Positions 10,952 through 64,000 of a stretch of DNA of 64,000 bases are shown here, piece after piece. The position numbers were made by a program, and so were the translations under genes. The DNA is from Bryoerythrophyllum caledonicum. Its lineage: Eukaryota; Streptophyta; Bryopsida; Pottiales; Pottiaceae. A model generated the notes under the pieces. It did not search any database and had not been told where the DNA came from. It was given only the letters and a program-made list of their open reading frames with translations. How positions within the stretch are numbered: the first letter of the stretch is position 1; every line of letters begins with the position of its first letter. The DNA is taken from the NCBI GenBank assembly GCA_963971425.1, contig OZ020521.1, positions 25,498,012-25,562,011 on the forward strand. Reading direction: 5' to 3'.

Positions 10952-11227
10952 TAGTAAGCAGTTGCGGAAGGCAAGGATGGGAAGACGCAAGGCCTAGAGG
11001 ATGACTTAGGAGATATTCCTTGTGCCCAATCATTAGAGATTGGTGAAGGTGAGAGTTTGCTAATTATTGGAGAGGATGGTGCAGCGCCATTGCAATATAA
11101 GAAAGACGACATTAAGGACGAAGAACAAGGACATGAGGGGCTCAAATGTTTAGAAGTGTGCTCTAGAGGGCAGCCGGCACCGGCACTCCTTTGGAAGTGC
11201 CTACAAGAAACTCCAAGGCATAATTAA
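10952..11227 (+). other. Open acidic plus-strand frame, possible exon fragment
   Basis: A stop-free frame of about 90 codons follows a TTTTTCAAGTAG acceptor-like sequence, with no ATG at its start. It is rich in Glu, Asp and Gly (for example LEIGEGESLLIIGEDG) and ends in TAA at 11227. No family was recognised. Its last part contains a segment also found near 22530. It could be an exon of a broken gene or chance. Confidence 0.25.
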
Positions 11228-11507
11228 AGAGGATGCCATTAGCTTCATGTCGTGCACAACCGCATCGTGCCAAGATAACATCGTGCTAATCAGGTGAGAA
11301 CGCACAGTCAGAGACAACTCGAGAGTAATGGTGACATAAGCACCACCGTTACCTCTATAAAACAATAATACAATGCACACTTACACACTTTCACCAATCC
11401 AGACTTGAGGAAAAGAAATAAATGACCCATGACCTCGTATACCAAGAAGTAGTAAGCGGTCTCCAAGTACCCCTTTACTCGCCCCCTTTGCCCGTGCTGA
11501 AGCCCCG

Positions 11508-11563
11508 TTCACACCGGCGAACCACACAGTTTACATGTAAACTGTGTGGTTCGCCGGTGTGAA
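11508..11563. repeat. Perfect 56-bp palindrome
   Basis: Two 28-bp arms, starting TTCACACCGGCG, meet at a central TTTACATGTAAA with no spacer and no mismatch. Extruded, this would be a 28-bp hairpin with no obligatory loop. It lies between the integrase stop of the methyltransferase retrotransposon and its unknown 3' end, so it may be part of that element's 3' terminal region or a tiny insertion of its own. Confidence 0.9.
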
Positions 11564-11651
11564 AACCTCTCAAAACCATAGAATCACTGTAATCCACATG
11601 AAAAGGCGCTAAAAGACTTGACAAACAAAGGGTAGGCCGGGTGCAAGTAGA

Positions 11652-11666
11652 GCCCCATCGTTAATC
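11652..11666 (-). promoter_or_regulatory. Conserved 3' motif GATTAACGATGGGGC
   Basis: The 15-base motif lies just downstream of the integrase-PHD stop and is followed by a TGCACCCGG sequence. The identical 15 bases occur after the last stop codon in element C (33092-33106) and element II (54308-54322). It may be a polypurine-tract region or another cis signal; the function is unknown. Confidence 0.5.
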
Positions 11667-11710
11667 GCCTCTAACATATTTTTAATGCTAGACTTTGTCC
11701 ACTCAGACCC

Positions 11711-12874
11711 TCAACGTGCTAAACACTCAGGACAAGACCATTGATCCACTGGTACTTCCAACAGAGGTGGAGTTAAGCATTCTAAATGCCACCCCGTAGA
11801 ACATAAGTCACAAATAACCATAGTGGCAGCCCTTTTGGCACTACCACACAACCGACAACGTAATCCAGCAGAGATGTGAGAGAGACCAGGGTGTACTGTC
11901 CCATCAATGTGTGGCAAGTGGCAAGGTGCACAATTACGTGTGTGATCCTTCCACTTCTTGCCATCACGACCCTCCAACACTAACACTCCTGAGTCCTTCA
12001 CCTCACGAACTCTCAAGATTATCCTTTCTATTGTCACATCCAAGGTGGTGGGCGTTGCTTGCTGCAAATACACATAGTCTCCAGGTGTAAAACGCCGCAG
12101 CTGCGGTCGATAACCACCTCCCCGTATTGTAGCATAGCGCAACGTATCTCGATGTTGAGCAATGGAGAGGTTCTTCAATGCCATAGGCATCACCCTTTTG
12201 AACAACTCTGCACGATGCTCACACACTTGAGCCCACGTGTCTGGATTGTCCATGTTAGCCAACACGGTGTCAGCATCTGCTTGAATGGCCTTCGGTAAAA
12301 CCGGGTGCCTTCCAAACAATAGATAGTAAGGTGAAAAAGACGCCAAGGATGCCTGTTTGCTGAACCGATAGCCCATTGCTATCCATGGTAGCTGTAAATC
12401 CCAATCCTGCTGATGTCCTTTCTTCAAGCTGTACTTCCGGAGCCCCCTCTTGACGGTTTGCACCATGCGCTCCGCCAATCCATCTGCTTCGGGGTGATTC
12501 CTCGAAGTAGTGCGATGATCAATCATCGCTTGCTCACACAACGTCTGAAACTCACACAAGAATTCTTTGCCTTGGTCTGTAAGTACCTCTGCTGGAGCTC
12601 CAAAGCGACTCAGAACACGGTCAAGAAATGAATATGCAGCTCCCTCACTAAACTTATCAGGTAATGCCACTAACTCTATCCATTTCGAGAAATGCTCGAT
12701 GATTACCAACACATACTTGTTGTGTCGAGGTGTCACTGGCAATAGACCTGCAAAATCCAAGCTCCATCTATATCCTAAGCCCATAATTGGCAAAGGTTGT
12801 AACAGAGGCATTGGAGCGTTAAAAGACGCTCGTACTCGGTCATACACCATACACCGAGCCACTAAAGCTTGCAC
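11711..12874 (-). pseudogene. Integrase core and C-terminal PHD finger
   Basis: The 387-codon frame starts in the integrase: LDFAG carries the first catalytic Asp, TDQGKEF the second and AERMVQ the Glu of the DDE triad. RFTPGDYVYLQ begins the C-terminal integrase domain. At about residues 337-384 there is a C4HC3 PHD finger (CRLC, CDLC, GWHLEC, WSCPEC). Chromoviruses of this superfamily usually carry a chromodomain there, and a PHD finger could likewise read histone tails to guide insertion; that role is inferred. A stop codon near 12880 separates this frame from the upstream zinc-binding part, so in its present state it is broken, although this segment itself is intact. Confidence 0.85.
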
Positions 12875-12880
12875 TTGGGA

Positions 12881-14083
12881 TTACATTCCACGCCACCAAT
12901 AGTGAATCTGAAGTAGACTATAAGTCCTCCGCACTCCAAACTGTCCAAGGTCCTCATGTGTGTCTTTAATCAGTTTCACTCTTTCTATTGAAGTTGGTAC
13001 TACCTTCTTAGTACCATCTGGCCACACTCTCATAAGGTGAGTCCTCTCCCACACAAACCTCTTAGCTCGTTGTAGAACCCTATCTCTCTCCTTATGAGAC
13101 CATGAAGCCACCGTTTCTCCCTCTTGCAAAAACTGCATCACATTCGTGTCTTCGTGAATATCTCTGGTGCCCCTAGACTCCTCACCTCCATCCTCATCTA
13201 CTGTGGCCACAGTAGCTTCCCTGGTGGTGTCTCCATTCAATGCCAATATTCCCAAAAAACCCGAACAATGCCAACCTGGCAACGGCTCGGTTTCACCCTC
13301 AGTATGCCACCTAGCACCTGTATCATCCTCTTGGTTTAGAATTGGATTGCGGCTAAGGCCATCTGCATCCATATTAACCAATCCTGCCCTATGAACCACC
13401 TTGAAGTCATACTCCATCAACATCAAGGCCCACCGTGCCAATTTTCCTGTCAATTTATCAGACTCCATCAACCATTTCAACGGCTGATGATCTGTAATTA
13501 ATAGAAATTCGTTACCGTAAAGATAACACCGAAAATGAGCAATTGCCCATATTGCAGCCAAGCATTCCCCCTCATACGAGCTATACTGAGCGTCAGCATT
13601 GTTGTTGGACCGGCTGGCATACGCAATCACAAATTCCTTACCATCATCATCCATTTGCGTCAATACTGCATCAATCCTCAACGAGCTCCAATCTGTGTAT
13701 AGCTGGTACGTCCTTCCTGCTATAGGCTTCCGAAGTATTGGTGCTGATGCCAAACGGTCTTTCAATTGTTGAAAGGCCGCCTCTTGCTCATCTCCCCAGA
13801 TCCAAGGTTGATCATTCCTTGTCAACATGCTTAATGGCTTGGCAATAGCACTGAAAGTTTTGACAAACTTTCTATAATAGTTACACAACCCCAGAAATAG
13901 TCTCAACCTACTAACATCTCGTGGTCTAGGAATAGACATCACTACTTTCACTTTGCTAGCTACCACACCTAATCCACTTGGATAAATCATGTGGCCTAAA
14001 TACTCAATGCGATCAAAGTAGAATTTGCACTTACCAGGGTGCAACTTTAATCCATGGAGCCTCAATCTAGCAAAAACCTCCAT
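12881..14083 (-). pseudogene. RT thumb, RNase H and integrase N-terminus
   Basis: A 400-codon frame. It begins with the RT segment GLKLHPGKCKFYFDRIEYLG typical of Ty3 elements. It continues through the connection and RNase H (QLYTDWSS at about residue 128, SSYEGECLAAIWA, LLITDHQPLKWL, ADGLSRNP). It ends in the integrase HHCC region (DTHEDLGQFGVRRTYSLL, then YWW). It stops at a TAA just before the cysteine pair of the zinc site, which is encoded in the next frame segment. In a complete element this would be one polyprotein with 14825-14130 and 12874-11711. Confidence 0.85.
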
Positions 14084-14086
14084 CTA

Positions 14087-14825
14087 GTGTAGTCTATGTT
14101 GCTTTCGATTCCTGCTAAAGACAATGATGTCATCGATATAGTATCTCACGAAATCCAACCCCGAGAATACTGTCCATAACCCTTTGAAATTCTGCTGGAG
14201 CATTCTTCAATCCAAACCGTAGAAACTTCCATTGAAACAACCGGTCCTTCCCATCCCTGTCAATGCCCAAGAACCCGGTTTTCTCCTTGTCTTCCTCTCT
14301 CAATTCAATCTGGTGGTATCGAGAGCATAAATCCAATGTACTAAACACCATGGCATGGCCAATGGCCTCAAAGTTCTCCTCAGGAGTTGGCATTGCATAA
14401 CGGTCTGACTTAGTGAATTTATTAATTCTTCTATAGTCACCACACATCCTTTTCTCAGTCCAATTACCATAAATGTCCTTCTTGGATGGCATAACCGTTG
14501 CTGATGCATACTCACAATCTGGAGGAGCCAACTCCACCAACTCTGCAGCCATCAATTCTTCAGTGCGAGCACGAATCATCTTCCGCTCCATGTCGCTGTA
14601 CTTGTATGGCTTTCGATAAATTGGTGCTTCGTCGGTTAAGTTAATATGCACTTCTTGCCCCTTCAACACTCCCATATTATATAAACTGAAAGCAAAACAA
14701 TCCAAATACTCCTTTAGGAACTCATGTACCTCCACCTCCACCACTCCATCTGCCAGGCCTACTCTTGGTTTCCAAGTGTCCTTAGTCACCACCTCCTTCG
14801 GTTCCTTTGGAGCAGGGTTTTCCAC
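14087..14825 (-). pseudogene. Reverse transcriptase, frameshifted before the YIDD motif
   Basis: The 231-codon frame carries RT fingers and palm motifs: YRKPYKYSDMERK, CGDYRRINKFT, a VFSTLDLCSRYHQI block with the first catalytic Asp, and FLRFGLKNAPAEFQRVMD. A single-base change near 14160 throws the next motif into another frame, where RYYIDDIIVFSRN is plainly visible. A TAG then precedes the thumb at 14083. The two active-site Asp residues of YIDD are preserved in sequence but not in frame. The enzyme type is clear and the copy is non-functional. Confidence 0.85.
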
Positions 14826-14834
14826 CCTTGGTTG

Positions 14835-15527
14835 CTATTGAATCCCCAGTGAAGGAGACTCCCCTCCTTCCTCCTCAATAAGACTCCCAAGTCCTTTCAA
14901 TCGACCCAATTTGTCAATTTCTTCCATGTGAAGAGCTGTGTGTTCTTCTAAGAAGATCTTCTCCACAACATCCTCCAAATCCATCCTCTGGTGAGCCAAT
15001 CTACTCTCTTCACTCCAGTTCTCCCCTCCATAGTGAAGATCCGTTGCCTTGGTGGTCGCAAAAATATTTGCGTTATCCCACATGATCCATGGATCAGGTG
15101 CAAAGGCCCTCTCGCCCCCAACCACTTTGCTTGTCACCCTGACAGAGGCAAGTGGTTCTCCTGCCGCCCGCAACTCATAATAATCCATGTTACTAGTCAA
15201 ACTAGAAGCTAACCGCTTCTGTTCTGCAACCACTAATGAAACAATCCAAGTCAAGCAATTTAAATCCATGGCCTGACCAAGTAAAAATTGTCTCTGTGGT
15301 TGTGAAACCCCAGGCACATCGGTGGTGCCAGTGGAAAAGCCCATGGCTCTCTCTCGCTCATTTGTATTTGGCTCCACCATCTCCTGGGACAATGAATCCC
15401 ATACAAGCCCAGGTCCATTATCCTTCAAGGCATAAGACCGTGCAAAGCTAACCAACGTGGATAAGGCCCTACGTGGTTCCCCCTTGCGGTTAACTACCGC
15501 TAATGGTGCCTGGTCATCGTGATACAC
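14835..15527 (-). pseudogene. C-terminal part of the methyltransferase and linker to RT
   Basis: A 230-codon frame. Residues about 10-35 (RKGEPRRALSTLVSFARSYA) fit the target-recognition side of DNMT3/DRM-like enzymes. Residues about 57-92 (NERERAMGFSTGTT, then RQFLLGQAMDLNCL) match the C-terminal motifs IX-X pattern in which E-R-x-x-x-M-G-F and L-L-G-x-A-x-D close the catalytic fold. The remaining part (about 110-230) is an acidic linker leading to the RT frame, which begins 10 bp after its stop codon. The frame is offset from the upstream methyltransferase segment. Confidence 0.7.
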
Positions 15528-15946
15528 GCGCCGTGGTGTCCTACAATATAACCAGGCGGTTGCCTTTGAGAAGTCTGAAGCAATCGAAGCACTCGAATCA
15601 TGTCAAAGAACCTGGAAGAACGGGAATCCTTTAACCCATTCTGATTGCCTGCCATAGACATGCCTTGGCAAGGCCATCCTGCAATGACAAGGTCCACATG
15701 ACCCACACGGTGAATGTCATCGTCTGAAAACAAGGAAATATCACCCACAAGCGTAGAGAAGGAGGTTTTGATGGCACTCATGGCCAACAATTCTGGGAAT
15801 TGAGTCCTCAGTCTTCGTGTGTGACGTTTGGCCACATGTCTTGCTGCTTCATCCACATCCACGTAAATGTAGCGCTTAACCTTGATCCCAGCTTGTAAAA
15901 CAGCTGCCAAGCCTGTGCCAATGCCTCCAAATAGTTCCAACAACAC
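15500..15946 (-). pseudogene. Cytosine-C5 DNA methyltransferase, catalytic N-terminal half
   Basis: The 148-codon frame begins LLELFGGIGTGLAAVLQAG, the S-adenosylmethionine-binding motif I (F-G-G-I-G-T-G). Motif II follows (YIYVDVDEAARHVA). Motif IV carries the catalytic cysteine (LVIAGWPCQGMSMAG, Cys near residue 93), then SSRFFDMIRVLRLLQ. After PPGYIV the expected ENV motif VI and the following motifs are absent and the frame shifts, so roughly 60-80 codons appear to be deleted. Family: DNMT, most like the DNMT3/DRM branch by eye. It lies between the protease and RT in the same orientation, in a polyprotein context. In an intact relative it could methylate element or target DNA. Confidence 0.85.
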
Positions 15947-16024
15947 GATGCCATCTGTTGGTGCCTTCCAATGGATGGTGGCAATGTCTAATGGAGGTCC
16001 TAGGTCTTGGTCAACTCCAGGCTC

Positions 16025-16273
16025 TTATTGCAATTGTGGTAGCATAGAATGCTGCCATGCCTCTTCCACTGCTAACTCCGCGGCCTTCTTCAACTGGGTG
16101 GTGTTACTCCACGCTGCCTCGATTCCAGGTCTGTATCCTTCTTCCTCTCCACCACTCGTGTTGCCCATGTAGACATCCACTTTCTCTGAAATGTGGTCAA
16201 CCCTAGAAGGATCCTCAAAACCTGCTTGAAACCATGAAGGTTTCATATTCATACCTCCAGAGAAGGCAAACAC
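16025..16273 (-). pseudogene. Linker between protease and methyltransferase
   Basis: An 82-codon frame with no recognised domain. It contains GGMNMKPSWFQAGFEDPS and an Ala/Glu-rich end, and stops 4 codons before the region leading into the methyltransferase. By position it belongs to the same polyprotein, separated from Gag-protease by stops near 16508 and 16350. Confidence 0.5.
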
Positions 16274-16507
16274 GTCAGCTAAGTTACCAGTAAGAACTCG
16301 AATAAATCGAGCTGGCAGCTGAGCCTTCCGCCCATCTCCTGCTTGCCATCCTCATCTATAGCTTGCTGACTCCTCCCAGAAATCCAAGGTGAATTCCATA
16401 GAGTAAAGCACCGCCGAGCCCACCAAGACATCATACGACTTGGCCTCCGTAACGATCGCCTTCACCTTCATAGAACTGGCATCTGCCACATCAGTTTGGT
16501 TGAATTG

Positions 16508-18301
16508 TTACACCAACTCAGCCCTTGTGATCCCTGTCGCGTGCTCTGTACCTCCCATGGATGTGCTAATGGTCCAGGGACACTTCTCCACAGTATCCCC
16601 AGTTAATCCCAATCCTTCCATAGCAGACGCTCCTAGCATCAAAGCTTGAGCTCCTGAATCCAGAAGCACACGTCGAGGTACAAATATCTTCCCCTTAGGC
16701 CCATTGAGTTGGAAAATACCTTGGGAATTATCAACCACTACCACACCAGGGATAATGGATGATCTCTCAATCGCAGGTCTAGCGGCCATTGTCTTCACAC
16801 GCATGGCTGCAAAAAGCAGCTCCTCCACGTTGTCACTCTGGCTCTTCTCTGCCTGGATTATCTCTGTCTTCAATACATTAACACCCGGGGAGTTGTCTAA
16901 CTCACACATTGAGGCCACACTTTTGAAGACCTCTGCCACACTGAAGCCATCCTGTGACAACATCTTAGCAGAAAATAACGAGGCTTCCCACACGGAAGTA
17001 GTTGCCTCCATAAGTGCTCGAGAACCTCCTGTGAGTCCTCTAGCTTGTGGTAAGGCTTGTGTGGGTATTGCCACTGGTCGTGGTGGAGGTACCATGGATG
17101 ACGTGGGTACCATCTCTTCTAACGTGAAGGATTGAGGCAACCTGACTTGTCGATTATCCTTTCCATGGTGGAGATCCAGAGTTGGACTAGCTCCACGTGG
17201 AACATCCTTGGAACTTGGAGTATGACTCCGTGTGAGGGCACAGGCCTCCTGTGTGCCATCCTTTATGGCAAGTGCCATGCCACTCAACATAAAATCTCCA
17301 AATTCATCATCTACAGAGCTAAAACCGCCCCCAGTATGAAAACTGGGAGTAACCTGAGGCTTGCTACCTACCACATTGGTATTGGCACTCATAGCTTCCA
17401 TCTTGGCCTCCAACTCGGCAAATTTGGCCTTCCAGCTCTTCTTCTCCCCTCCAGTGGCCTTGGACTCCTTGTCCTTGCCTCCTTTAGCTCCCTTGCTCCC
17501 CGTGGGCTTCAACTCTGGATGAAGCTTCCAGCACCTAGCCTCTCCATGCCCCTTGGCACCACAACCCGAGCAAAATCCTCCAGTCTGAGGTGTGGAAGTC
17601 TTACCTTCCTTGCAATCCTTCCTCTGATGTCCTGGCTTCCCACATTTGAAGCATAAGCCACCAGACTCTGCAGTATACGAAGGAATGGCCACCTTGGCCA
17701 CCTTAACCTTCTCTGAGACCTTCTCTTCACGTTTGAAAAAGCCCATGGCTGCCTTCTCTTCCAGTAAGTTTATCTCAATCCGCTCCGAAGTCTCAAAAAC
17801 AAACCGTAGTGTCGTGGGTACTCCCAATCGCAACGTCTCATTGCGAACCAAGGTCTTTAACTCCTTATCCAGGATACTGTACCAATGTTGCACTACCTGT
17901 TGTTCTATAACTCCGTGAGTGACTGAGATTAGTCTCCTTAATCTCGCATGAGCCTCTCTCAGAGACTCGTCACCTCCACGTGTGAAGGAACGCAGGGCCT
18001 TCATCTTATCCGCCCTCTGTCCTTGGTAGTCTGTATGGAGTTGCACGAAGAATTCCACGATGGGATTGAATGGAGGTGGATGATTTACCAGTATCTCTGT
18101 CTGCTCCACATCCTCCGTTGAGCTCATGCCTTCCTCCATCTTTCCCTTGGACAAGAGTGAGGGTGTCACCCTCCGTGCCCCACCGAACACGTCCACGTAG
18201 TTCGGTGCGTAGAAGTCTCTCCAGGCCATGATTTCAGTGAAATGGGCCGCCTCAAATTCTCCGTAGTTTGCTAGTGGTGCTCCCTCCAGACACCCAAACA
18301 A
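16508..18301 (-). pseudogene. Gag with two zinc knuckles, and aspartic protease
   Basis: A 597-codon frame. Residues about 75-190 have the helical capsid pattern of retrotransposon Gag (VEFFVQLHTDYQGQRADK, then ESLREAHARLRRLI). Two CCHC knuckles follow, CFKCGKPGHQRKDC at 217-230 and CSGCGAKGHGEARC at 244-257, which bind RNA during packaging. After a variable linker a pepsin-like protease motif LLDSGAQALMLG appears at 546-557. The frame opens just after a TGA at about 18308, where the upstream frame (18523-18308) ends in NPYMV; both read as one protein with a single stop, so the copy is inactive. Confidence 0.85.
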
Positions 18302-19363
18302 GGCTCTTCACACCATGTATGGATTGAAGTTGGGGATACGTGACTTCTGGAGTTCACACCACATGGTGAACTCCCTCTTGAAGTCATCGACTTCGATGGT
18401 GCCCGTGGCACCTGAAAATCTTCGTACCCCTCTTTCTCCACCTCCATATGGTGAAGCCATTTCCTCCCAATCAAAATATGATTGGTAAGGTTTTATGGGT
18501 AAGACTGGAACCTGAATACTCACCTATGGGCTTTCAAGAAATTCCTCCTCTTCGACCAGTGGCAAAGCACTCCTCTCTGCCTCTTCTGGTTGGCCACGAT
18601 TTTCTGTCAATACTCTCTCACTAGCATCTACTGAGAAGGGGGTGTTTCTACGTGTAAACCCGGGACCCTTCCAGTTCTCTAGATTGCTAATTGGGTGCTC
18701 TTACTGGAACAATCGCCAGGCCTCATGGGTTCCTCTCATCTCTGGGGCATAGATTGTGGATGTCACTTCCCAATCCAATATCTCTAAGGTAAGAATATCC
18801 CACACACTCGAGGCACGCTCCTGCCACGTGTTAACCTCCCACTGCCAGGTAGTGTGGAATAAAAATCCTTCGCTCTCGAACTCGGTGAAAATGAGGGAGA
18901 AGGTGGGTAACTGGATGCCTGAAGAGAAGTCCTCAACCTCTATACCATATCTGGATCCAGAATTTCGAAGAACCACGGCCTTACCTCCAGTTACCAAGTC
19001 TTCGACCCCCACTTGCCCACGAGCACGGCACAGCGGTGCTGGAATTCCTTCCTTCACCCGAAGCGAACGAATTTTCTGCACCCCACCGAGTGAAGTCCAA
19101 TACTTCACCGATTCTGCACTCAACACCTTCGTACCTGGTTTACGCAAATTCTGAGGCCCTATGCGAGATTTGGCTATGGGTAAAAGCTCAAAGTCCCCGT
19201 GGCTTCCACTTGTTGTGGCTGGGGCACCTTTCACTCGTAGGCTCTGTAAACAATCGATCAAGGTGTCCAACACCTCGCCATCAATTTCCACCTTCGGCCC
19301 ACTAGTCCTCTCGGGTTTCTTAGACTTACCTCTTTCCTCCATGGTCCATAACTCAAGTCTCAA
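18302..19363 (-). pseudogene. Gag N-terminal region
   Basis: Two frames precede the main Gag frame. At 19363-18701 there are 220 codons, probably starting at the second Met (TMEERGKSKKPERTSG), with no recognised domain. At 18523-18308 there are 71 codons (SYFDWEEMASPYGG, then FKREFTMWCELQKS), leading directly into 18301. A stop near 18700 and another at 18308 interrupt them. By order and strand they are the N-terminus of the same polyprotein. Confidence 0.6.
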
Positions 19364-19479
19364 ATATCCTTGAAATTCTCAAACCATATTAACAGAGTCC
19401 CCGCAAGCTTCCAAGCGTCCACTTTACCCTCCACCAGGTGCTATGAGTATAAAATCATCTTTCAACCTCCTGGTAGTCA

Positions 19480-20450
19480 ATGTTGGTACTCGGGTAATCT
19501 CATACGCAAACCCTACCTAACCTCATACGGGTACGGCAACCATTAATATGGTCCCAGTCTCGGTTACCAACCCCCACAGCCGGTCATCAACCCGATTGCT
19601 GGTTATCAACAGGACTGTAGGTCATCAACCCCACAGCCGGTCAACAACCAAGGGGCCGGGTTTAAACCAAACACCGGATATCAGTCGCATATACGAGTGT
19701 CACTAATCCAGGTGGGTATCATCACAACACTGGGTTTCTACACCAGTTTCAGGGTATCAAGTGTAAATGCGGATAAGGTTATCAATCACAACCGGGTATA
19801 AGCTCAAATCGGGTATCGTACCACACCCGGGTGTCAGCTCTTCCTGCCGGGTATCTCTCACTTGTCCGGGTATAAACCCACAAACCCGGATATCAACCCA
19901 CAGACCCGGGTTCAAACCCTGCCTCGGGTATACACTCTACCCCGAGTATAAACACCTGCCCGGTTATCGTACACCAACGCCGGGTACCAGTAGCATCAGG
20001 GTACCAGTATACGCTAAGAACCGGGTATCAAACCCTTAAACCATGTATCAACTCTCAAACGGGTATCAAACAAGCAAGAGGGTCTCAACAGTATAACCGG
20101 GACCCGCCCTAACTAGGTACCACTCTAACCGGGTACAACCTCAACCGGATACCAACACTGCCCCGGGTATAAGTCAAGAAAAGGGTATCACGGCGGACAA
20201 GGTAACAACAATCAAAAGGGTCTTACACACAATCAGGGTACCCGTCCGAAATAGGATATCAACGTCTCTCTAGATATCAATCACTACGATGGTTATCATT
20301 CCCTGCTCCGATTCTCAATCACACCCGGGTACAAACCGATGTCCCGGGTATCATGTTCGAGGACTGGGTACTACACTGTATCCGAGTATAAATCATCAAC
20401 AGGGTATAACCATAAACCAGCAGACCGGGTCGGAGAGAGCCGCAGCGAAC
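19480..20450. repeat. Degenerate array of CCGGGTATCA-type motifs
   Basis: For about 1 kb, variants of CCGGGTATCAA, CGGGTATAAA and CGGGTACCA recur roughly every 20-25 bp in one orientation, separated by C/A-rich spacers. No coding frame is supported. It lies immediately upstream of the Gag start of the methyltransferase element and could be that element's 5' leader or LTR, or an old satellite. Confidence 0.65.
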
Positions 20451-20689
20451 GCTGTCAGTGCCTGTCTGCGCTGTATCTGTGTGAATCCTTATGCGTCTGA
20501 AGAGATACCTCTCATTCCTTGCTCATGCACCACACCCTGTAGTTCATTTGCGCATCCGGCGTGAAGCTGCTGCTCCTGGTGAATGCCGCACAATAGCCTA
20601 ATGCTTGGTGCTGCATCAACGCTATGTTGGTGTTTGAAAAGCGCCGAACTCGAGACCAGTGGGTCTACCGACTAGCGTAAACCACAACC

Positions 20690-21735
20690 CCGCCGCTGGT
20701 ACTTGCACGCAGGGCTGGTGCCGCTATCTCCCACACCACTCTACACGAGGTGTTGCTGGTCTTTGACGTCCATTCCGGAATCCATGTTCAACGAGACAGC
20801 CACGGCGTAAATCTTAAACTAATTTCACGTACCAAGAACGCTAGCCTCCTCAATGTGGTTCTGGCTCATGAGTTCGTCAATCGCACAAGACCACTCCGCC
20901 TCTGGCACAACAAGCTTCTCCCGCACTCTCAGAAGTTCACACCCGCAGCGTATGTCGCAAAGTACCATGTGAAAGATCAAACGTCAGTGTCCACCTTTCT
21001 GCGCGCCTGTCCCATGGACGAGCCCCCGGACGATGTGATCGTCGCATCCGCCAACGACGGCGGCACGACCTCTTTCACCAGCGGATTCAGCTTCGCGAGC
21101 AGTCCCCACTCGAACAGCCTTGGAGGAGGATGGTAAGATCCGGTTCCAAGCTGCTGCTGCTGCCTTTGTAACCCGCATTCTCTTCTCCACAGCCCAGAGA
21201 GAAGGGGTCGCAAGGCGACGAAGCCGTTTGCAGGCTTGGGAGCTCTTACGCGGATCCCTGCTCCGGTCTCCCGAATTACCACAATATTGACATTGTCGTG
21301 GCGCATCTTAAGCCCCGGCAGGTTAAAGCAATGCACTAGCGACGCGAACAGGTCCAGCTCCTTGCGCAACTGCACATTGCGCGAACTCACACCGCCACCG
21401 ACGTTCTGCACACAAAAGTAAAAAACCACGACCACCACCACAACAGCGCCGAATGCCACTCGGGACTCCAGCTTCGCGTCCAGCTTCGTCTGTAGCTCCT
21501 CCATCACAGCCACCGCCGCGGCTCCCAAGGTCGTTTGCCCAAACGTTACGCCCGTCCACCTTCAGCAAGCTCCCCAAAGTGGCACCTGCAACCCACGAGC
21601 ACCACCACTGTGCAGGCGTGCGTCGTCTCTCTCCTGTGAAAGCGGATCTAAGATCCTCACAGAAAGTGTGGATGAAGACTAAGGTCAACGAACTGTCATC
21701 CACTTGGATTGGCTTATAGTTGACATCCGCCACTC
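20690..21735. other. GC-rich gene-derived island, strand uncertain
   Basis: Base composition changes sharply here. On the plus strand a stop-free frame (20681-21136) reads like protein (HEVLLVFDVHSGIHVQRDSH) after a TTGCACGCAG acceptor, and ends beside a GTAAGA donor at about 21133 with a CTTCTCCACAG acceptor 60 bp later. On the minus strand the 21528-20977 frame has a hydrophobic segment (VAFGAVVVVVVVFYFCV) and a plausible globular stretch (KELDLFASLVHCFNLPGLKM). A further minus frame starts MADVNYKPIQVDD at 21733. I could not decide the strand and recognise no family. It may be a captured host gene fragment or a residual host gene. Confidence 0.35.
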
Positions 21736-21739
21736 ATTC

Positions 21740-22610
21740 TCACCCTTATCCAATGGATTTCATCCGCTTAGCTAAGCACACTTGAGGTTTTGCAACAAAA
21801 TTTCAGCACTAAAACATAGCTCAAAAACACCCTAAACACAACATTTTGAGGGTTTTAAGTGTCACTAAATCACTAGGAATACACTCATATCTTAGTGGTG
21901 ATCTTTCTCAAGTAATAAATAAGTAGAAAATACTCATAAACTACACATAGTCAAGCCAATGCCATTCTTAAAGAATGGTCGCATAATAACAATGAAGTTT
22001 AAGAAGTGCACGCAAGCACGCACTCTCTCACTCCATCACGTGGGAGACTCAACTTGAGAAAGATGAGTCTCCCCACACTACACGTGGAGGTCATTTGGAC
22101 TCCAAGTCCCAAATGAGGTGTCAAAAGACACCACCAAGGCCCTAAAAGTCAAATAATACTAATACTAACTCTAATTAACAATTAAAGCTAGCATCTAGGG
22201 TTTCCTTGGGCCATTTAACCTCCTAGTTGGTTTACAACGCGTAAACCAACCTCCACAAACCCTCCAACGCGTCGAACCTGACATTCACCCTATTGCTAAT
22301 GAATGATAAGTTCATTATATTTCATTCACGCCCTAGAACTTTTGATGAACTTTCTGAAATGATGTGACACATTAGAAATTGAGCTTTCAAGAGTGTAGTA
22401 TGTGTGGATGAAGTATGTCAACACAAAACTTCATTCATGCATAACTCTCTCATTCAAGTTCCATTGCTAATGTGCTACATCACTTTAGAAACCACATGAA
22501 ATTCTCAAGAGTAGACTTTAGAGGAATGCCGACTCCGGCACTCCTTTGGGAGTGTCTACAAGAAAGTTCATGACACTTGCCTTTGAATTGAAGGTTCTTC
22601 AAGTAATATC
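21740..22610. other. Non-coding stretch
   Basis: AT-rich with no supportable gene. It contains a short inverted repeat GGTTTAC-AACGC-GTAAACC near 22230. At 22515-22555 a segment (CCGGCACTCCTTTGG, then AGTG and CTACAAGAAA) closely matches 11163-11207. Confidence 0.5.
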
Positions 22611-22616
22611 TTTCAT

Positions 22617-23066
22617 TTGGTTGTCATTTCAATATCTAGCAACTCCTACTCGATATGCGCATGCACTATCATTGCTTTTTGTTGCTTGTCGACCGAGATT
22701 GTTGGTGTAGATATGGTGCCATACGGAGCTGCCGGTGCCGGGATGGGGGCTACCAGTGTCAGCATGGAGGCTGCCAATGCTGCCGTGGAAGCTTCCGGTG
22801 CCAACATGGTGGCTGCCGATGCCCGCATGGAGGCTGCTTGTGCTAGTATGGGGGCTTCCGGTGTCAACATTGGGGCTGCCAGTGTTAGCATGAGGGCTAT
22901 CGGTGCCGACATGGGGGCTTTTGGTGCCAACATGGAGGCTGTCGGTGTCAACATGGGGGCTGTCAGTGCCGGCATGGGGACTACCGTTGTGAGCATGGAG
23001 GCTGCCGGTGCTAACATAGAGATTGCCGGTGCCGGCAGGGGTTTCAAGATTATATACAAACTGTAA
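22617..23066 (+). CDS. Low-complexity ORF made of a 21-bp, seven-residue tandem repeat
   Basis: From about 22714 to 23040 a 21-bp unit (consensus ATG GGG GCT GCC GGT GTC AAC) repeats about 15 times without a length change. On the plus strand it encodes M-(G/E)-A-x-(G/S)-(A/V)-(N/S) heptads in a 149-codon frame. On the minus strand the same DNA gives S-P-H-V-G-T-D heptads (22629-23072), and another minus frame is also open. It is not clear which strand, if any, is translated. There is no recognised domain, no intron and no promoter. Confidence 0.35.
   Translation: MVVISISSNSYSICACTIIAFCCLSTEIVGVDMVPYGAAGAGMGATSVSMEAANAAVEASGANMVAADARMEAACASMGASGVNIGAASVSMRAIGADMGAFGANMEAVGVNMGAVSAGMGTTVVSMEAAGANIEIAGAGRGFKIIYKL
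22714..23040. repeat. 21-bp minisatellite
   Basis: About 15 diverged head-to-tail copies of ATGGGGGCTGCCGGTGTCAAC-like units. All copies keep the 21-bp length, so three frames stay open. Confidence 0.85.
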
Positions 23067-23331: not shown

Positions 23332-25288
23332 TGTGAGCCAAATAAATCCCCCTCTAGCGGAAGGCTTATCTTGAACATAAGATCCTACCGAGGGATGCAA
23401 CCCCTTGTACAACCACCATTGAAACCGATCATACACACCATATGCAAGGAATAGTGGCTTACGTGGAATATGGTGAGCAACTTGTGTTTGTTATGCATGC
23501 ATTCAGCCTTACTTCATGCCCCAACTTTAAACATGCACAACTTTTGCCTTATGACTTTGTTTTCTACATTCTTTGGCTTAAGTAGGTTCACCTTGTCCTT
23601 GTTAACTGGAATGGACCACTCAAGACTAGATTCAGATCAAGGTACGACCCCAAGCAACAGTTGGTAGCAGACAGGCACTCTTCTCGGGTTCAGAACTTAT
23701 GTTCCCTTTATCCTCTTCTTTACAACTTTGTTTTTTGAGTTTTCCTCTTCTACCCTAACTAGTTCTTTGTGCTTAACACAATGGCATCCTTCAATTAGCC
23801 AACCGACTTGAACTTGGACTCACAACCATACGACCAGCTGCACCATGACTCAAGCATCCACCCACTTAATTCATAAACCATACAATCACATGCACAACCC
23901 ATGCAACACCTTCCTCGTTGGGTTAATTCTTTGTATTTATTGGAAATGTTTTTTAGGTTTGTATCAAACACTAATTCTATCTCAATTTAAACAGTGCTTC
24001 CGCGCGATTGATGAAGATGGCAAATCAAGGTTTATTTCCTATAACAAGTACTAGATGCAATTCAACCACATTCACAAGGTTGGGTTTTAAGAGGTTGGGG
24101 GGGGGAAAGCTCCCTGATTTGGTACTGCAGTTCACCCTCTGCCTTACATGTGCTGTTTGCGATCGCCTTCCTTGTGTGCTGTTCGTGATCGCCTTCCTCT
24201 TATGCTGTTTGTGATCGCCTTCCTTTTGAGCTGTTCGTAATCGCCTTCTTCTTGTGCTGTTCGTGATTGCCTTCCTCTTGTGCTGTTCGTGATCTCCTTC
24301 CTAACCTAATTGTCCTCGGTTCGAACTAGGGGCCCCCAACTCTCAGCTGGTGTTCTCTCGCTAGTAACTAACACACAATTCTCTCCAGCAGCCGAGGCTT
24401 CCGGCTTACTACTCTTGCTCTCGCAAGTTCAGTCCTCCTCTCTCAACATTCCTTGCCCGCTCCTTCAAATGAGCTCCTTGGGGGGGGGGGTAATCCTCCA
24501 GAGCCCTTGTTTGCCTTGTGCTCCTCACGTTCCCTTCGTCGTTCCCTCGTGGTTCACAGCCGCCACTTTTGGGTCGCCACATTAATGGTCACACTAAACA
24601 ATAGTAACTGAAAAGCTAATTAATCTCTAGCCACCTTTGCAACAACACGGGAGGTACCTCCACTAACCTAATAATACTTTTACTAATAATTTTAACATCA
24701 TGCCACATGATGTGCGCATGATCAACAATAAGTGAACCCTTTAACTAATTCAAGGGTGCTAAACTCACGTCTATCTACCTAACTTAAATTCCCCTTGCAT
24801 GGGGTTATGTCTAATTTAATAAGTGATTGGTAGGGGTATTGCCCAAGCCATTTTGACCCTTCTTGACTAGTTTTTAATGGGCTTTTAAAGCCTCATTCTT
24901 ATTTCTTCCTCTTCACCATCATTCTTTATTTTTTTTCCCTTCCATCTACTCCTATTTTAATCGTGGCTAATTTACCGGGGCTACTTCACGGTCTCCGAAT
25001 TGATAGGAGATAATTTCTTCTCCATTCCATTCACTTTTAACTTTTCTATTGTTTTTATATTTTAACTTTTTTTTTCTCTCTATTTATTTTTTGATTAATC
25101 ATATAAAAATCTTGGTTGCCATAATGTGGCTCCTAAATTATGAATTAGTGGATGGAAAAGGCCAATTGGCCATTTTGGTCAAAAATCATGGGCTAATCCA
25201 ATTGGTTAACCCATTTTTACTACTTCTTAACCTCAACGTATACGTTGCGTGATCCATTCCTCACCGTGAGCCATTTTCGCGGCTCACA
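23332..25288 (-). repeat. LTR of element A (3' LTR)
   Basis: A 1957-bp repeat starting TGTGAGCCAAATAAA and ending CGCGGCTCACA on the plus strand. It contains about six 26-bp tandem units of the type TGCTGTTCGTGATCGCCTTC at 24148-24303. The partner is 51053-52940 (1888 bp, fewer units). Confidence 0.85.
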
Positions 25289-34022: not shown

Positions 34023-36595
34023 TGTGAGCCAAATAAACCCCCCCTAGTGGGAAGCTTATCTTGAACACAAGATTCTACTTTGAGGGATTCAGCCCCTTGT
34101 TCAATCAACAATCAAGACATACATGCATACCTCCCATTTAGATCGCAGCGGTTCATGATGTGTTTAACGCAATGTTTTATCTATCATGAGTGCATTAGGG
34201 ATGAATTATATCTTTGACTTATTGCCGGACTTTGAACCTCTTTATCTTTTGCCTTATGGCTCCGTTTTCTATGTTTTTTTTTTGTATTCTTATTAGTTTT
34301 TCTTGCTTAACACGATGGCAGCCTTCAATTAACCATTTGATTCAATCCTAGACCCACAGCCAACGACCAGCAGTGTTCACTTAACATATGCATTCATTTA
34401 ATATCATGCACTACACATTCACATGCATTCACACAAGTAATCCCATTCCAACCTTACTAATGACAATTAAACCACCAATTGGTTGAATTTATAACAAAAC
34501 CCTAATCCTAGTGAAAATTTGGCAGCGCTTCCGCGTAGTGTTTTTAACTAGACAATTTAGGGTTCCTTCTCCACATGCAATCAAGAGAATAATGAATCAA
34601 TTGGGAAAGGAAGAAGGCTCCCTGATCCCGCTCAATTCACCCTCTGCCGTGTTTGTGTTCGTTCTTGTGATTGTGGTCGTCTTCCTCTTCTTGGTGCTCT
34701 TCACTCTGCAGCCGATATCTTCGTCGTCACAACTCCGATCCGCACGTTCTTGATCTTGTTGGAAAGCCAACTTCCTAATCTATCTATTCCTAAAATCTTA
34801 GCTTAATACAACTAGAACTCCGTGACTGACGAGGGAAAAACTGAGGCCGCGTGGGATCCGCCGCCGGTTGCTCCAGCTGGTCGTCCTTGCTCCGCGGCTC
34901 GTATCTTCGTCTTCGCAGCTCCAAACCGCACGCTCTTGGGCTTGTTGGAAAGCCAACGCTCTGATCTCTCTCCACCCGAAAAATCAACTTGATTGGAGCA
35001 ATACTCCGTGACTGACGAGGGAAAGACCGAGGACCTATGGGATCCGCCGCCGATCTTCCAGCTGGTCGCCCTCGCTCCACGGCTTGTATCTTCGTCGTCG
35101 CAGTCCCAAATCGCACGTTCTTGATCTTGTTGGAAAGCCAACGCTCTAATCTATCTACACCTTAAAGCTCAACTCGATTGGAGCAAAACTCCGTGACTGA
35201 CAAGGAAAAAACCGAGGCCGTTTGAGATCCGCTGGTTGCCCTTGCTCCGCGGCTTGTATCTTCGTCTTTGCAGCTCCAAACCGCACGCTCTTGGGCTTGT
35301 TGGAAAGCCAACGCTTCGATCTATCTACACCTAAAAGACCAACTCGATTGGACCGGAACTCCGTGACTGACGAGGGAAAACCCGAGGCCGTGTGTGGTGC
35401 GCCGCTGATCCTCCAGCTGGTCGCCTTCACTTCATAGCTCGTATCTTCGTCGTCACAGCTCCAAACCGCGTGCTCTTGAGCTTGTTGGAAAGCCAACGCG
35501 CTGATCTATCTACGCCTAAAATCTAAGCTTCATCGGACAAGAACTGTGCGACTGACAAGGGGAAATCTGAGGACAAGTGAGATCCGCCGCTGATCCTCCA
35601 GCTGGTCGTCCTCACTCCGCAGCTCGTATCTTCGTCGTCACAGCTCCAAACCGCGCGCTCTTGAGCTTGTTGGGAAGCCCACGCTCTGATCTATCTACTC
35701 GCTAATTTTCGTAACGATTGAGTTAAATTCCAGCCCACAAGAGGGGGAAATCTGGACCCTACCTCTCTCTCTCTCTCCACACACCTCCTCTCGGTTCCTA
35801 GCTCCTACCACACGCCTCTCTAACTCCTACCTCACACACCTTCGAATGAGCGCCTCCAAGGGGGGTAACCCCAAAGCCCTTGCTCCCTTCTTGTTCCCAA
35901 GGTCGTTCCCTTCGTCGTTCACAGCCGCCAATTTTGGGTGGGCACATTAATGGTCACACTAAACAATAGTAACTAAAAAACTAAAAAATCACTAGCCACC
36001 CTTGCATTTAACACAAGTGGGTGTCCCACTAACCAAGGAATATCTAAATCTAACCTTTGACTCCATGCCACATGTGTGTGCATGATCTCAATAAGTGAGC
36101 CTCTAAACTAATTTCAACGATGCAAATACTACCTAATTAGCCTAGATTGAATTCCCCTTGTTTTGGGTTATGGCTAATTTGCCAAATGATGGTGAGGGTT
36201 TTTTCCCCAAGCCTTTGGGTCCCTTAAACTATTTTTTCCTCTTCCCTTTTCTTTGAGGCTCTTTGATTTTTTCCTTCTTCCTTCTTTTCTCCTTCTCACC
36301 ATTTTTCCCTCCTTCCTATTGTTTTGGTTTTCTCCATCTTTTCTTATTTTTTTTTCTTTTTGTTTTCTTCTATTCTTTTAATTTTTTTTTTCTTTATTTT
36401 TTGGTTATCTTCCTAAAACTTCCGGTTACCACAATGTGGCTCCCACTGATGATTTAGTGCACGGAAGGCTTAATTGGTCAATCCAATCGAAAACCAAGAA
36501 CTAACCAATGGGATAACCCATTTTCACTACTAGTTAACCCTTATGGACGCGATGCGCGGTCCATTCAACCTCGTGGGCCGGTTTTGCGGCTCACA
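34023..36595 (-). repeat. 3' LTR of element B
   Basis: 2573 bp, TGTGAGCC...GGCTCACA. It contains six head-to-tail copies of a unit of about 185 bp (one of 170 bp) from about 34713 to 35760, each with GTATCTTCGTCGTC and TTGTTGGAAAGCCAACGC phrases, and a C/T-rich tract at 36230-36410. Confidence 0.95.
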
Positions 36596-36739: not shown

Positions 36740-39700
36740 TCACACCTTGTACTCCTTGCACCGGTTGCCCGACGTCCTCGTGGGAAAATCCTCGCCGTTT
36801 AGGATTTGAAGTTGAACGGAGTTGTTGGGGAAGACCTCCTTCACGAGATAGGGTCCCAACCACAAAGCATCTAACTTGCCAGAGAAACCCAATCTCCTCG
36901 CATCTTGGAGGAGGACTAACATGCCCGGTTGTAGTGACCGGACCTTGTTTCGTTTGTCGAAGGCAATCTTCCTTCGACGTTGAATGGCTTCCATGTGTTG
37001 GGCGCTCCACCGACACATCTCATCAAGCTCCTCCAATCGTTCTAACCGATCCGCTAAGGACGTGGCCATGGACCATCGTTCGCTCACGGCCACTCGCAGA
37101 GAAGGGTCTGAAGGGATCTCAAATTCTATTGGCAAAATGGCTTCAATGCCATATACCAACGAGAAGAGAGTAGCATGGGTGGTTACTTTGAAGGTGGTTC
37201 GGTAGGCCCATAATGCGGCGGGGAGTTTCGTGTTCCAATCCCTCTTGGAATCGGTGACCGTCTTTCTCAAAATTTTCACGAGGGTTTGGTTGACCCGTTT
37301 GGTATGGCCATTGGTTTGGGGGTGGTAAGGGGTGGTCTTACGATGGTTGATCTTGAACCGGGTGGTTTGTCTAATGGGAGTAGTGCCCGGGAGAAGAGAA
37401 TTGTGATGTTGTGTCACCGCCCGGGGAATGCCCTTGAGGTCTCTATATGACCACGCAAAAATGTCCCGGAACTCGACAACTAGTGACTTGTAGTTCACCA
37501 TCTCCACCTTGGTCAATCCAACATCTACCTTTATATTGCGGACTTCTTCGTCCTCATGAGAGACCACCAGCAACTTCCAATCATCATGATGCACGTGTGG
37601 TTGTTGAATAGGTCCCTTGTACCAATCATTCGGAACTTGGGGGTATGTTGCCCCCGAACCACTACCTAGAATACCGGTGGATGTCCTCCTAAAGTGGAGA
37701 GATGGGTTGAGAGGGCCCTTATCGATCAAAACCTCCAACTCCATCCTTTGTGTGCCATTGACATCCATACCGAATACTGCTGCGGGTTCTAAGTCATCTA
37801 GGAGGGGGACAAGGCTAGGTTCCAACCCGGTCTCTACCTCAATCAACTCACTCTCCATGAAATGCACGGACACAGCTTCGTCCGCGCTCGAGGTGGGGTG
37901 TTCTCTCAACCACTCTACAAATTCACCGCTAGGGACCCACTCATAAAGGCCCGGTCCCATACTTTTGAACGGCATTACTTTGGCTTTCGAGGGTTGGGCT
38001 CTATCCACCGCCTTGTGGGGCGCAAACCTCACTTTTTTGGGAGGCTCTTTTGTTAGAACCTCTTGTGATTCATCTTCGGAAGAGCCCATGCAACCGTGGC
38101 ATAATCCTAGCCTACTTGGTTGGATATGGACCGTGGTAGGGTTCTCCGGTGGACCATAGGTGATGTTTGGTTTTGGGCCTCCCCATTCTACTGTGGCATT
38201 GGCAATTCGCAACCAAGGCCTACCTAGTAACAAAGGATATGCCTCCTTATTGGTGTGCATTCGAATGACTTGGAAGGTGAGGGAATACTCTACCCCCCCC
38301 GTGGTAACTTTACAACCACTAATTTGGCCTAACGGGGCTTCCGAGCTCTGATTGGCCATGTTGATGATGTATGGTGATGGTTCAGTGATGTCTAGACCCA
38401 ATTTTTCCATAGTTGAGAGGGGCATGATGTTCAAGCCACTCCCACCGTCGACAAGTACGTTGGGTACCACCTTATCCACAATTGAGACCTCAATTTGAAC
38501 CGCCTTGACTTCGATGTTGGGATGTGCAGATTTTACACGAGCCGCCAACCTCACCTTTGCCTTAGGCCTCCGCTTCACCGGGGTGCCCGACCTAAGGACT
38601 TTCCTCATGGATGGGGATACCTCCAACAGTTGGGCTATGGTGATGTCCGCCTTGAGACGACTCAAATCTGCCCATAAATTGTAAGGTCCTTCTCCCACGT
38701 GTCCCTCGACACGTGGGAATGTATTCACTTCGGGCCTAGGAACCGGTGGACCTTCCCATGGCTCTTGGGAAGTGGACAATGGTGTTTGTGACCTAGGTGT
38801 CCCATGGGAGGACCTTAAGTTGGCCTGTTTAGTGCCTTCCACCGCCTCCTTGGTTGTATCGTATAGGTCAGAAAAGTGAGGTGAATCTTCCTCCGAGGTC
38901 TCATCTTCTTCTGGTATGGGTGGAGGGGGGCTTGAGTACCTAGGCTCCCGTCGGTTAGACCGAGTTTGGACTGCCAAGGCGGGTAACTCACAAGTCTTTG
39001 CTTCCTTGGTTGTGCTAAGCTCGTGAAACACTACATTGAGCTCTGTGAGGGAAGGACCTTGTGTGGATACGATGTCACTTGACATGGTGGCATAGCGCAC
39101 ATCCTGTGGACCTTGGTTTTGTTGGCCCCCGTGGTTTTGTTGGCCCCCGTGGTTTTGTTGGCCACCGTGGTTTTGTTGGCCACCGTGGTTTTGTTGGCCA
39201 CCATGGTTTTGCCCTTGGTTTATAGGGATGTAACCGTCCTTGGTATTAACCCCCATTGGGGAAGTTTGACTTTGGCGGTTATTGTTGTAGTCATAGTAGA
39301 GGCTAGGTGGCCTAAGGGTGTTATCGGTGGTGGGGTTACGTGCACCTCTAAAGTGGTCTTGGGCTTGTTGAGGATAGTTCCCCGGTGGGGAAGGCATGGG
39401 AATTACCTTGTCCGGCCTTCGACATACTTGGGTGGGGTGATTACCCCCACAGTTACCACATACTACTCCACTTTCAACCCAACACTGCCCAGGTGCGTGT
39501 CTCTTGCCACAAGTGTGGTGGATTTCATACCGTGGTCGTGGAGGTCCCCCATAACCTTGGTTTGGTGGTGTATAGCCTTGAGGGCCATAGTTAGTTGCCA
39601 CCGGTGGTTGATTCCTATGGGGCGGCACATACGGGGTTTGAGTGGCCTGGTACTGCGGTGCCGCCGCAGGGGTGGTGCAGAAGGGGCTAGTGTGCCCTGG

Positions 39701-63852: not shown

Positions 63853-64000
63853 CTCTAAGGACAATGCAATGGGGCAAAGAAGATTCGTAAAAATTGCTAA
63901 CAAGTTACTGAATGCTACGAGCGATGGTGGTGTATATGTTGGTAGTGGAGTTCTAATTCAGTTTAGAGAGTGACATTGAGCGGTGTGAAGAATGTGACAA

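Follow-up and report, generated by a model that had tools for sequence, protein, structure and literature searches.

The window we have analyzed, a stretch of 64,000 nt from the moss Bryoerythrophyllum caledonicum (contig OZ020521.1, positions 25,498,012 to 25,562,011), contains a dead copy of a Ty3/gypsy-type retrotransposon. The family to which this copy belongs has split terminal repeats, a DNA methyltransferase of the DNMT3 type and an integrase with a PHD finger at its C-terminus. We consider this description practically certain. The copy is an insertion of 11,036 bp on the minus strand with TGTC...GACA ends, and its features are collected in Table 1. The original prediction, made from the sequence of the window, had placed both domains in a single Ty3/gypsy polyprotein order at 11641..19363. 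The observation is confirmed and the order stands, but the element extends beyond these limits at both ends. The interpretation that accompanied it is partly supported.

A methyltransferase and a PHD finger in one family

The organization of the family is seen in its intact copies. Their coding part begins with an open reading frame (ORF) called ORF0, followed by ORF1 (Gag, protease and DNMT3), an in-frame UAG and ORF2 (reverse transcriptase (RT), RNase H, integrase and PHD). Two intact copies, L031 and L032, have been read over the whole coding part, and each of them contains both the methyltransferase and the PHD finger; they are 99.5% identical. In L031, ORF0 has 213 amino acids (1617-2252) in a frame other than that of ORF1, and its window counterpart has no Pfam match. 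ORF1 has 1,370 amino acids, with Gag, CCHC, protease and DNMT, and ORF2 has 1,038 amino acids from its first GTG, with RT, RNase H, integrase and PHD. Both are in one frame, parted by a single UAG, and they have the same lengths in L032. The methyltransferase lies in frame inside ORF1, and no borders of a separate insertion are found around it.

The combination recurs throughout the genome assembly of 437,360,962 bases (the window is on contig C9). Searches with PF00145, with the methyltransferase of an intact copy and with the integrase-PHD scored 123 of 1,055, 118 of 2,140 and 106 of 5,330 candidate places, respectively, so these numbers are lower bounds. The two methyltransferase lists merge into 173 places, including one, L001, which is not a copy of the element. 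L001 (C14:16016358-16017317) is a full-length PF00145 match (218 bits) in a single frame of 370 residues; it matches no element piece and would be a bacterial-type or host methylase.

A listed methyltransferase is found upstream, on the same strand, in 90 of the 106 scored integrase-PHD places, and downstream in none of them. The spacing, from centre to centre, is 3.0-4.5 kb at 87 places (median 3,417). The 16 places without a listed methyltransferase include the window copy, where it is seen directly, and C12:15916701, where the fetched stretch has a full one upstream (340 of 341 residues aligned, 87% identity). The methyltransferase is therefore upstream in at least 92 of the 106 scored copies. 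Copies with a fully open ORF2 provide a check which is not circular: the ORF2 match (1,041 residues) is free of stops in 23 of the 106, and the methyltransferase is present in every one of these 23 (in 22 according to the lists, in one according to the fetched stretch). Both ORF1 (at least 1,358 residues) and ORF2 (1,041) are free of stops in the match in eight copies, which were matched by hand. Chance is ruled out by the Pfam E-values together with the presence of the DNMT-PHD arrangement in at least 92 of the 106 scored places.

The UAG between ORF1 and ORF2 was counted at first as decay of the window copy, and this interpretation was dropped because the codon is conserved. A search with the junction pattern gave 30 rows, which correspond to 28 distinct places (L003-L029 and the window; L031 and L032 repeat L017 and L018). 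All 28 have UAG, and the next six bases are CARYYA in 26 of them, the exceptions being L014 and L015; the pattern itself demanded CAA after the codon. The junction is altered in L030, and the RT start was not found for L002. The junction of subfamily 3 (L033), whose methyltransferase is 54% identical, reads UAG CAA UCA. PMC3542737 describes UAG CAR YYA as the motif of type I readthrough, the leaky context of the tobacco mosaic virus type. Since all 28 junctions and the divergent subfamily 3 have retained the UAG, it is not decay: it is probably a leaky stop. If ribosomes do read through it, the methyltransferase would be made with Gag, not just with Pol.

The terminal repeats are split. Two ordinary flanking long terminal repeats (LTRs) are not found; in each of three subfamilies, the one copy examined has the layout A-coding-B-A-B. 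Copy 1 has A (371 bp) at its 5' end and B (232 bp), GC, A, B at its 3' end, both repeats being 100% identical. The layout does not differ in the subfamily-2 copy (367 bp at 100%, 231 bp at 99.6%) or in the subfamily-3 copy (367 bp at 98.6%, a 97-bp B piece at 99%). Target site duplications (TSDs) of 4 bp are found in four of four copies with TGTC...GACA ends: CCTC, TAGT, AGGA and, for the window copy, TGAA (which reads TTCA on the plus strand). The TSD of subfamily 3, AGCA, was read by eye, as the alignment border is shifted. A query with the B-A junction scored 40 places of 874 candidates. In 33 of these places an integrase-PHD is listed upstream, and the distance is 1,040-1,057 bp in 32. The internal B-GC-A junction corresponds to two element ends joined with two bases between them. 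Two B-A junctions, C12:23034613 and C12:23035218, are 605 bp apart, and one copy seems to have B-A-B-A-B at its 3' end. The order Gag, protease, RT, RNase H, integrase, together with TG...CA ends and a short TSD, is that of Ty3/gypsy LTR retrotransposons.

Type and conservation of the two domains

The motifs which had been predicted for the methyltransferase (LFGGIGTG, GWPCQG and LLGQAMD) are present in the window, between protease and RT on the minus strand. We have aligned 27 methyltransferase rows (25 distinct places), each of them covering at least 90% of the domain. GWPCQG is intact in all rows except L010, and ENV in every row. Changes in motif I occur in L007, L008, L020, L022, L024 and L028, and subfamilies 2 and 3 also differ in this motif, in a conserved way. 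Motifs I, IV, VI, VIII and X are found in the canonical, unrearranged order in the intact copies, with single changes or stops in some rows.

A profile made from six element methyltransferases gave 56 hits in the PDB. DNMT3A is the first (3e-22). It is followed by a DRM-type chain (1.5e-11), named just "DNA methyltransferase" and presumably tobacco DRM, and by HhaI (1e-10), DRM2 (8e-10) and DNMT2 (5e-5). DNMT1 is absent among the 56 hits. DRM aligns over part of its length only, being rearranged; because the motif order of the element is unrearranged, its methyltransferase is not a DRM. A whole relative, P0206, ranks DNMT3A/3B first. Judging from these comparisons, the element methyltransferase is of the DNMT3 type, nearer to DNMT3A/3B than to DRM, DNMT1/CMT or DNMT2. 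In a fold model of the relative P0209 (637 amino acids), the mean pLDDT (predicted local distance difference test) is 54, with 306 residues below 50 and the core blocks at 201-410 mostly at 62-91; DNMT3A/3B chains occupy all 50 rows shown, with modest TM-scores (template modeling scores) of 0.33-0.67 according to the target. A tree of element methyltransferases was not used for placement: it has long branches for P0218, P0217 and P0037 and contains no host DNMT3.

The profile matches also bear on a different substrate. RNA methylation has been raised for a LINE-type (long interspersed nuclear element) case in PMC5890265, and expression on the Gag side would place the enzyme on packaged RNA, so that genomic RNA or the primer tRNA might be its target. 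Nevertheless, DNMT3A/3B are the best matches and DNMT2-type chains are far behind (3e-22 vs. 2e-5 at best): we find an RNA target quite improbable.

Selection was estimated from the ratio of nonsynonymous to synonymous substitution rates (dN/dS). In 54 pairs of copies from subfamilies 1 and 2, picked free of stops and all sharing one divergence, the DNMT has a median dN/dS of 0.044 (0.036-0.052), with a dS of about 1.7, and the protease has 0.080 (0.063-0.124); dS is saturated against subfamily 3. When L031 is compared with three subfamily-2 copies, the PHD (65 codons) gives 0.087-0.107 and the integrase 0.026-0.031. These ratios indicate that DNMT and PHD are under purifying selection between subfamilies. 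The dS of the DNMT is about twice that of the protease (0.87) and the integrase (0.7), and recombination between subfamilies 1 and 2 may account for the higher value.

It could be argued that methyltransferase and PHD are mere passengers, or that they have been juxtaposed by chance nesting, without any joint function; the broken methyltransferase of the window copy would fit such a view. We regard it as extremely improbable, and it is already contradicted by the fixed spacing at 87 places, with none in reverse order, by a methyltransferase in frame inside ORF1, by a dN/dS between subfamilies of 0.04 (DNMT) and 0.1 (PHD), and by catalytic motifs which are kept in three subfamilies and in relatives. 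The original prediction that both domains belong to one retrotransposon is thus borne out by two intact copies, by the recurrent order and spacing, and by purifying selection on both.

The PHD finger has all eight zinc ligands of the C4HC3 type, as predicted, and both Pfam and a pattern match detect it at the integrase C-terminus. It matches the PHDs of KDM5B, UHRF1 and PHF21A, among others in the PDB, and is likely a histone reader. In the PDB, the window integrase matches Ty3 best, although its fold model ranks foamy-virus integrase first. Integrases with a PHD are not limited to this family: a search covering proteins of 214-680 amino acids, a range outside which full polyproteins fall, gave 436 hits. 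At least 120 are listed, including proteins from Klebsormidium nitens, Calypogeia fissa, Marchantia, Sphagnum and Gonium; the named hits are 48-71% identical. The strict PHD pattern is found in 59 of the 120 listed proteins, and some of the others are cut short. Among these 120, methyltransferase pieces are matched only by Marchantia P0037.

Relatives are also found among database proteins. Nine proteins (ENA, JGI, lgn) of 1,252-1,376 amino acids, one of which (P0206) was read at full length, have a methyltransferase with the motifs PC[QN] and [EK]N[VI]; it follows a Gag-protease-like sequence and shares its frame. P0218 (1,967 amino acids) has RT, RNase H, DNMT, integrase and PHD in one frame, with the methyltransferase placed differently and barely above the Pfam cut-off (22.8 vs. 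22 bits). Motif IV is GWECQ, not GWPCQ, in P0218 and in Closterium P0217. Past its PHD, at about 1690-1967, P0218 has an AT-hook-like stretch followed by a stretch with an SPPF motif, possibly an amino-methyltransferase, with no Pfam match. Marchantia Mp_7g09570 (P0037) is a decayed fusion of the end of a protease, methyltransferase pieces (43% and 55% identity over 107 and 66 residues) and an integrase-PHD, of which Pfam detects just the PHD. Two scans of viral contigs gave no relative.

The window copy and its surroundings

Table 1. Features of the retrotransposon copy in the window (positions in the 64,000-nt stretch)
Feature	Position	Strand	Basis
Whole retrotransposon copy	11248..22283	-	Alignment to intact copy L031/L034/L035, border reading
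TSD TTCA, 3' side of the element	11244..11247	+	Comparison with intact copies, border reading
TSD TTCA, 5' side of the element	22284..22287	+	Comparison with intact copies, border reading
Terminal repeat A1, 5' end	21913..22283	-	96-97% identity to intact-copy A over the aligned part
5' leader (approximate) with degenerate short repeats	19380..21912	-	Repeat scan, alignment to intact copy
Open frame with ORF0 (ATG at 19342), no Pfam match	18701..19378	-	L031 counterpart of 213 aa
ORF1 part with the CCHC knuckles of Gag and an aspartic protease-like LLDSGAQ; ORF1 has premature stops	16508..18307	-	Pfam, motif reading
DNMT3-type methyltransferase, N-terminal part, motifs I and IV	15543..15994	-	Pfam, motif reading
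DNMT3-type methyltransferase, C-terminal part, up to LLGQAMD	15201..15542	-	Motif reading, intact-copy alignment
In-frame UAG between ORF1 and ORF2 (CAA UAG CAA CCA), leaky-stop type I motif	14835..14837	-	Junction comparison; motif as in PMC3542737
Reverse transcriptase, first part of ORF2; frameshift near 14130	14130..14834	-	Pfam RVT_1
End of RT, RNase H, integrase zinc-binding domain	12881..14083	-	Pfam
Integrase catalytic core (rve)	12491..12772	-	Pfam, PDB match, fold model
C4HC3 PHD finger, integrase C-terminus	11723..11857	-	Pfam, pattern
Terminal repeat B, 3' end; A2 and second B of the intact copy missing	11248..11479	-	Intact-copy comparison

The domains of the window copy from Gag to PHD lie on one strand and in one order. 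The Pfam scan detects DNA_methylase (E 9e-12) in the open piece 15500-16024, and rve (9.6e-14) and PHD (7.1e-10) in the open piece 11711-12880; it gives no match for the C-terminal methyltransferase piece (14835-15602) or for ORF0. A single frame covers ORF0, Gag, protease and the first part of the methyltransferase. Compared with intact copies, a deletion of 229 bp at 15542/15543 removes methyltransferase motifs VI-VIII. Past this deletion the reading shifts frame for the rest of the methyltransferase and most of the RT, and it returns after the frameshift in the RT. With premature stops in both ORF1 and ORF2, the RT frameshift and motifs VI-VIII gone, the window copy is dead.

A search for an LTR pair within the window alone found none. 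The presence of A and a single B is what would be expected after recombination between two B repeats. A 77-bp repeat (11144-11220 and 22499-22575, 74% identity) was considered as an LTR candidate and rejected, since it is outside both borders of the element; it flanks the element and is probably part of the DNA at the landing site. The 3' untranslated part of the element contains a perfect 56-bp palindrome (11508-11563, 28-bp arms), which the young copy L031 matches partly.

Other repeats are found in the window. Two blocks 8,402 bp apart (34,023-35,775 and 42,425-44,177), 100% identical where compared, flank a gag-pol-like frame of 1,395 amino acids (36740-40927), which looks like a very young LTR element. 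The repeats at 23393-25288 and 51113-52940, about 27.6 kb apart and with 86-97% identity in five blocks, are possibly the LTRs of a large nested element. A tandem repeat of 21 bp (63 bp) at 22728-23041 has an open frame with a high content of Ala, Gly and Met. Two long frames at 60181-63957, one of them with a CxCx..CxH motif which we take to be SWIM-like, may correspond to a MULE-type (Mutator-like element) transposon. Elsewhere in the genome, L040 (C821) and L041 (C590) contain two different plastid-type rbcL genes, one of them with a short accD-like frame after it, and two types of plastid may be present in the assembly.

Possible roles and comparison with known elements

Retrotransposons are usual targets of DNA methylation, and a DNMT3 of their own under strong selection raises the question of what methylation gives to the element. 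In the explanation that we favor, ribosomes would mostly halt at the UAG, so that more methyltransferase than RT would be produced, and it would be packed with Gag. The enzyme would methylate the new complementary DNA (cDNA), or else the insertion site, in the course of reverse transcription or after it, and the methylated incoming DNA would resemble methylated host DNA. The integrase would insert it by its DDE reaction, while the PHD finger would hold the intasome to histone H3 tails and help in the choice of chromatin. The internal B-GC-A junction may serve as a template which restores the element ends, possibly via a circular intermediate, as has been proposed for DIRS-type elements.

Taken as a whole (the family, a Gag-side DNMT acting on cDNA and PHD-aided integration), we judge this explanation fairly probable. 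Its functional steps, from the excess of methyltransferase over RT and its packing with Gag to the methylation of cDNA or insertion site and the intasome held by the PHD, would have a little less than an even chance, and both self-methylation and histone reading are proposals drawn from the sequences. A more ambitious version is doubtful, although possible: a writer-plus-reader element across streptophyte algae and bryophytes, with a de novo DNMT packed at Gag stoichiometry thanks to its place before a leaky stop, methylation of cDNA in the particle, restoration of the ends as a circle through an internal B-A junction and a DDE integrase guided by its PHD. The claim in the original prediction of a self-contained silencing or targeting system is unsupported as worded and can only be kept as a conjecture; the copy on which it was based is dead.

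Several observations weigh against the explanation that we favor. Five of the 27 aligned rows have stops inside the methyltransferase, and 14 of the 106 scored integrase-PHD places have no methyltransferase in the lists. The loci compared for the UAG and the motifs are the best PF00145 matches, and are biased to intact copies. The N-terminal methyltransferase piece of the window, taken alone, ranks DRM2 (4.5e-8) slightly above DNMT3A (3.9e-7). Readthrough is predicted from the codon context alone. The mutation footprint of methylation in the window copy is weak: C-to-T changes are found in 34 of 488 CG sites and in 119 of 2,868 CHH sites, and a control in the reverse direction has the same CG preference (21/476 vs. 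77/2,845). Finally, the DNMT of KnitGypsy had no activity in yeast, a result called inconclusive in PMC5890265 since human DNMT3B failed too.

The same element might instead use its methyltransferase on host chromatin or on integrated copies, with self-restraint or a change of the host methylome as the outcome, not protection of cDNA. Strong purifying selection on the DNMT fits any useful role, and the observed to expected CpG ratio, 0.53 in the element vs. 0.69 in the whole window, agrees with methylation over a long time, whatever its source. A slower rate of retrotransposition is an option raised by the authors of PMC5890265. However, the placement of the DNMT on the Gag side, followed by what is probably a leaky stop, suggests that it works in the particle, and strong CG-specific decay is not seen in the window copy, so that we consider an action on host chromatin unlikely. 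The preferred explanation, a Gag-side enzyme acting on cDNA, may be tested on this basis: one would expect to find plenty of the enzyme in the particle, acting on cDNA. With the DNMT and the PHD-tailed integrase, a single mobile unit would also combine a writer of DNA marks with a likely reader of histones. The presence of split repeats next to a DDE integrase is, in addition, a natural test case for the replication of such ends.

Readers of chromatin or methylation are known in other retrotransposons. Chromoviruses are Gypsy elements with a chromodomain in their integrase, and a methyl-CpG-binding domain is also carried by a retrotransposon. To our knowledge, these elements have the reader only, without a DNA methyltransferase in the same element. 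Gypsy proteins from Klebsormidium, Calypogeia, Marchantia, Sphagnum and Gonium share with the moss family an integrase with a C-terminal PHD.

Of the elements known so far, KnitGypsy-Dnmt3 of Klebsormidium nitens (de Mendoza et al. 2018, PMC5890265) comes closest. It is a Gypsy element carrying a DNMT3-type methyltransferase, and we have compared it by its published description. The original prediction had mentioned methyltransferases in retrotransposons of a few eukaryotes, a charophyte alga among them, and the Gypsy elements of Klebsormidium in PMC5890265 agree with this. Both elements have the Gypsy domain set, a DNMT3-type enzyme with unrearranged motifs and DIRS-like repeats, and the methyltransferase of KnitGypsy-Dnmt3 is described there as under purifying selection, with a Ka/Ks below 0.2. 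The same text places that DNMT in the Pol polyprotein ORF, while the moss family has it in the ORF of Gag and protease, upstream of a conserved UAG at which readthrough would join both ORFs. The word "PHD" is absent from the main text of PMC5890265, whereas the moss-family integrase ends in a PHD finger. The 4-bp TSDs and TG...CA ends on the split repeats of the moss family are a further difference from the published description.

The moss family might be simply KnitGypsy-Dnmt3 in another host, new only in its species. The shared features listed above agree with this, and integrase-PHD proteins exist in K. nitens (P0011, P0052); the different ORF of the DNMT and the PHD missing from that main text do not. 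This is a minority view for us, although it is compatible with the explanation that we prefer.

More distant cases are SymbioDIRS-Dnmt3 and SymbioLINE-Dnmt of Symbiodinium, whose DNMTs are also borne by retrotransposons, with tyrosine-recombinase or LINE machinery and in other hosts; SymbioDIRS DNMTs methylate CG in yeast, and the charophyte and dinoflagellate acquisitions are treated as independent in the text of PMC5890265. DIRS elements of the PAT type share the A1-B1-A2-B2 layout of repeats, but they have a tyrosine recombinase and no integrase gene in the description of PMC4157794, while the moss family has a DDE integrase and 4-bp TSDs. A tyrosine recombinase replacing the DDE integrase, the mark of DIRS/PAT elements, is not what we find: rve is present, and no search aimed at a tyrosine recombinase was made. 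Besides the main text of PMC5890265, we found no published account of a DNMT-PHD pairing or of this family in the open-licence literature. The features which appear to be new, as far as the sequences indicate, are the DNMT-PHD pairing in intact copies, a Gag-side DNMT before a putative leaky stop, integrase-type footprints on split repeats, and relatives in Marchantia and Closterium.

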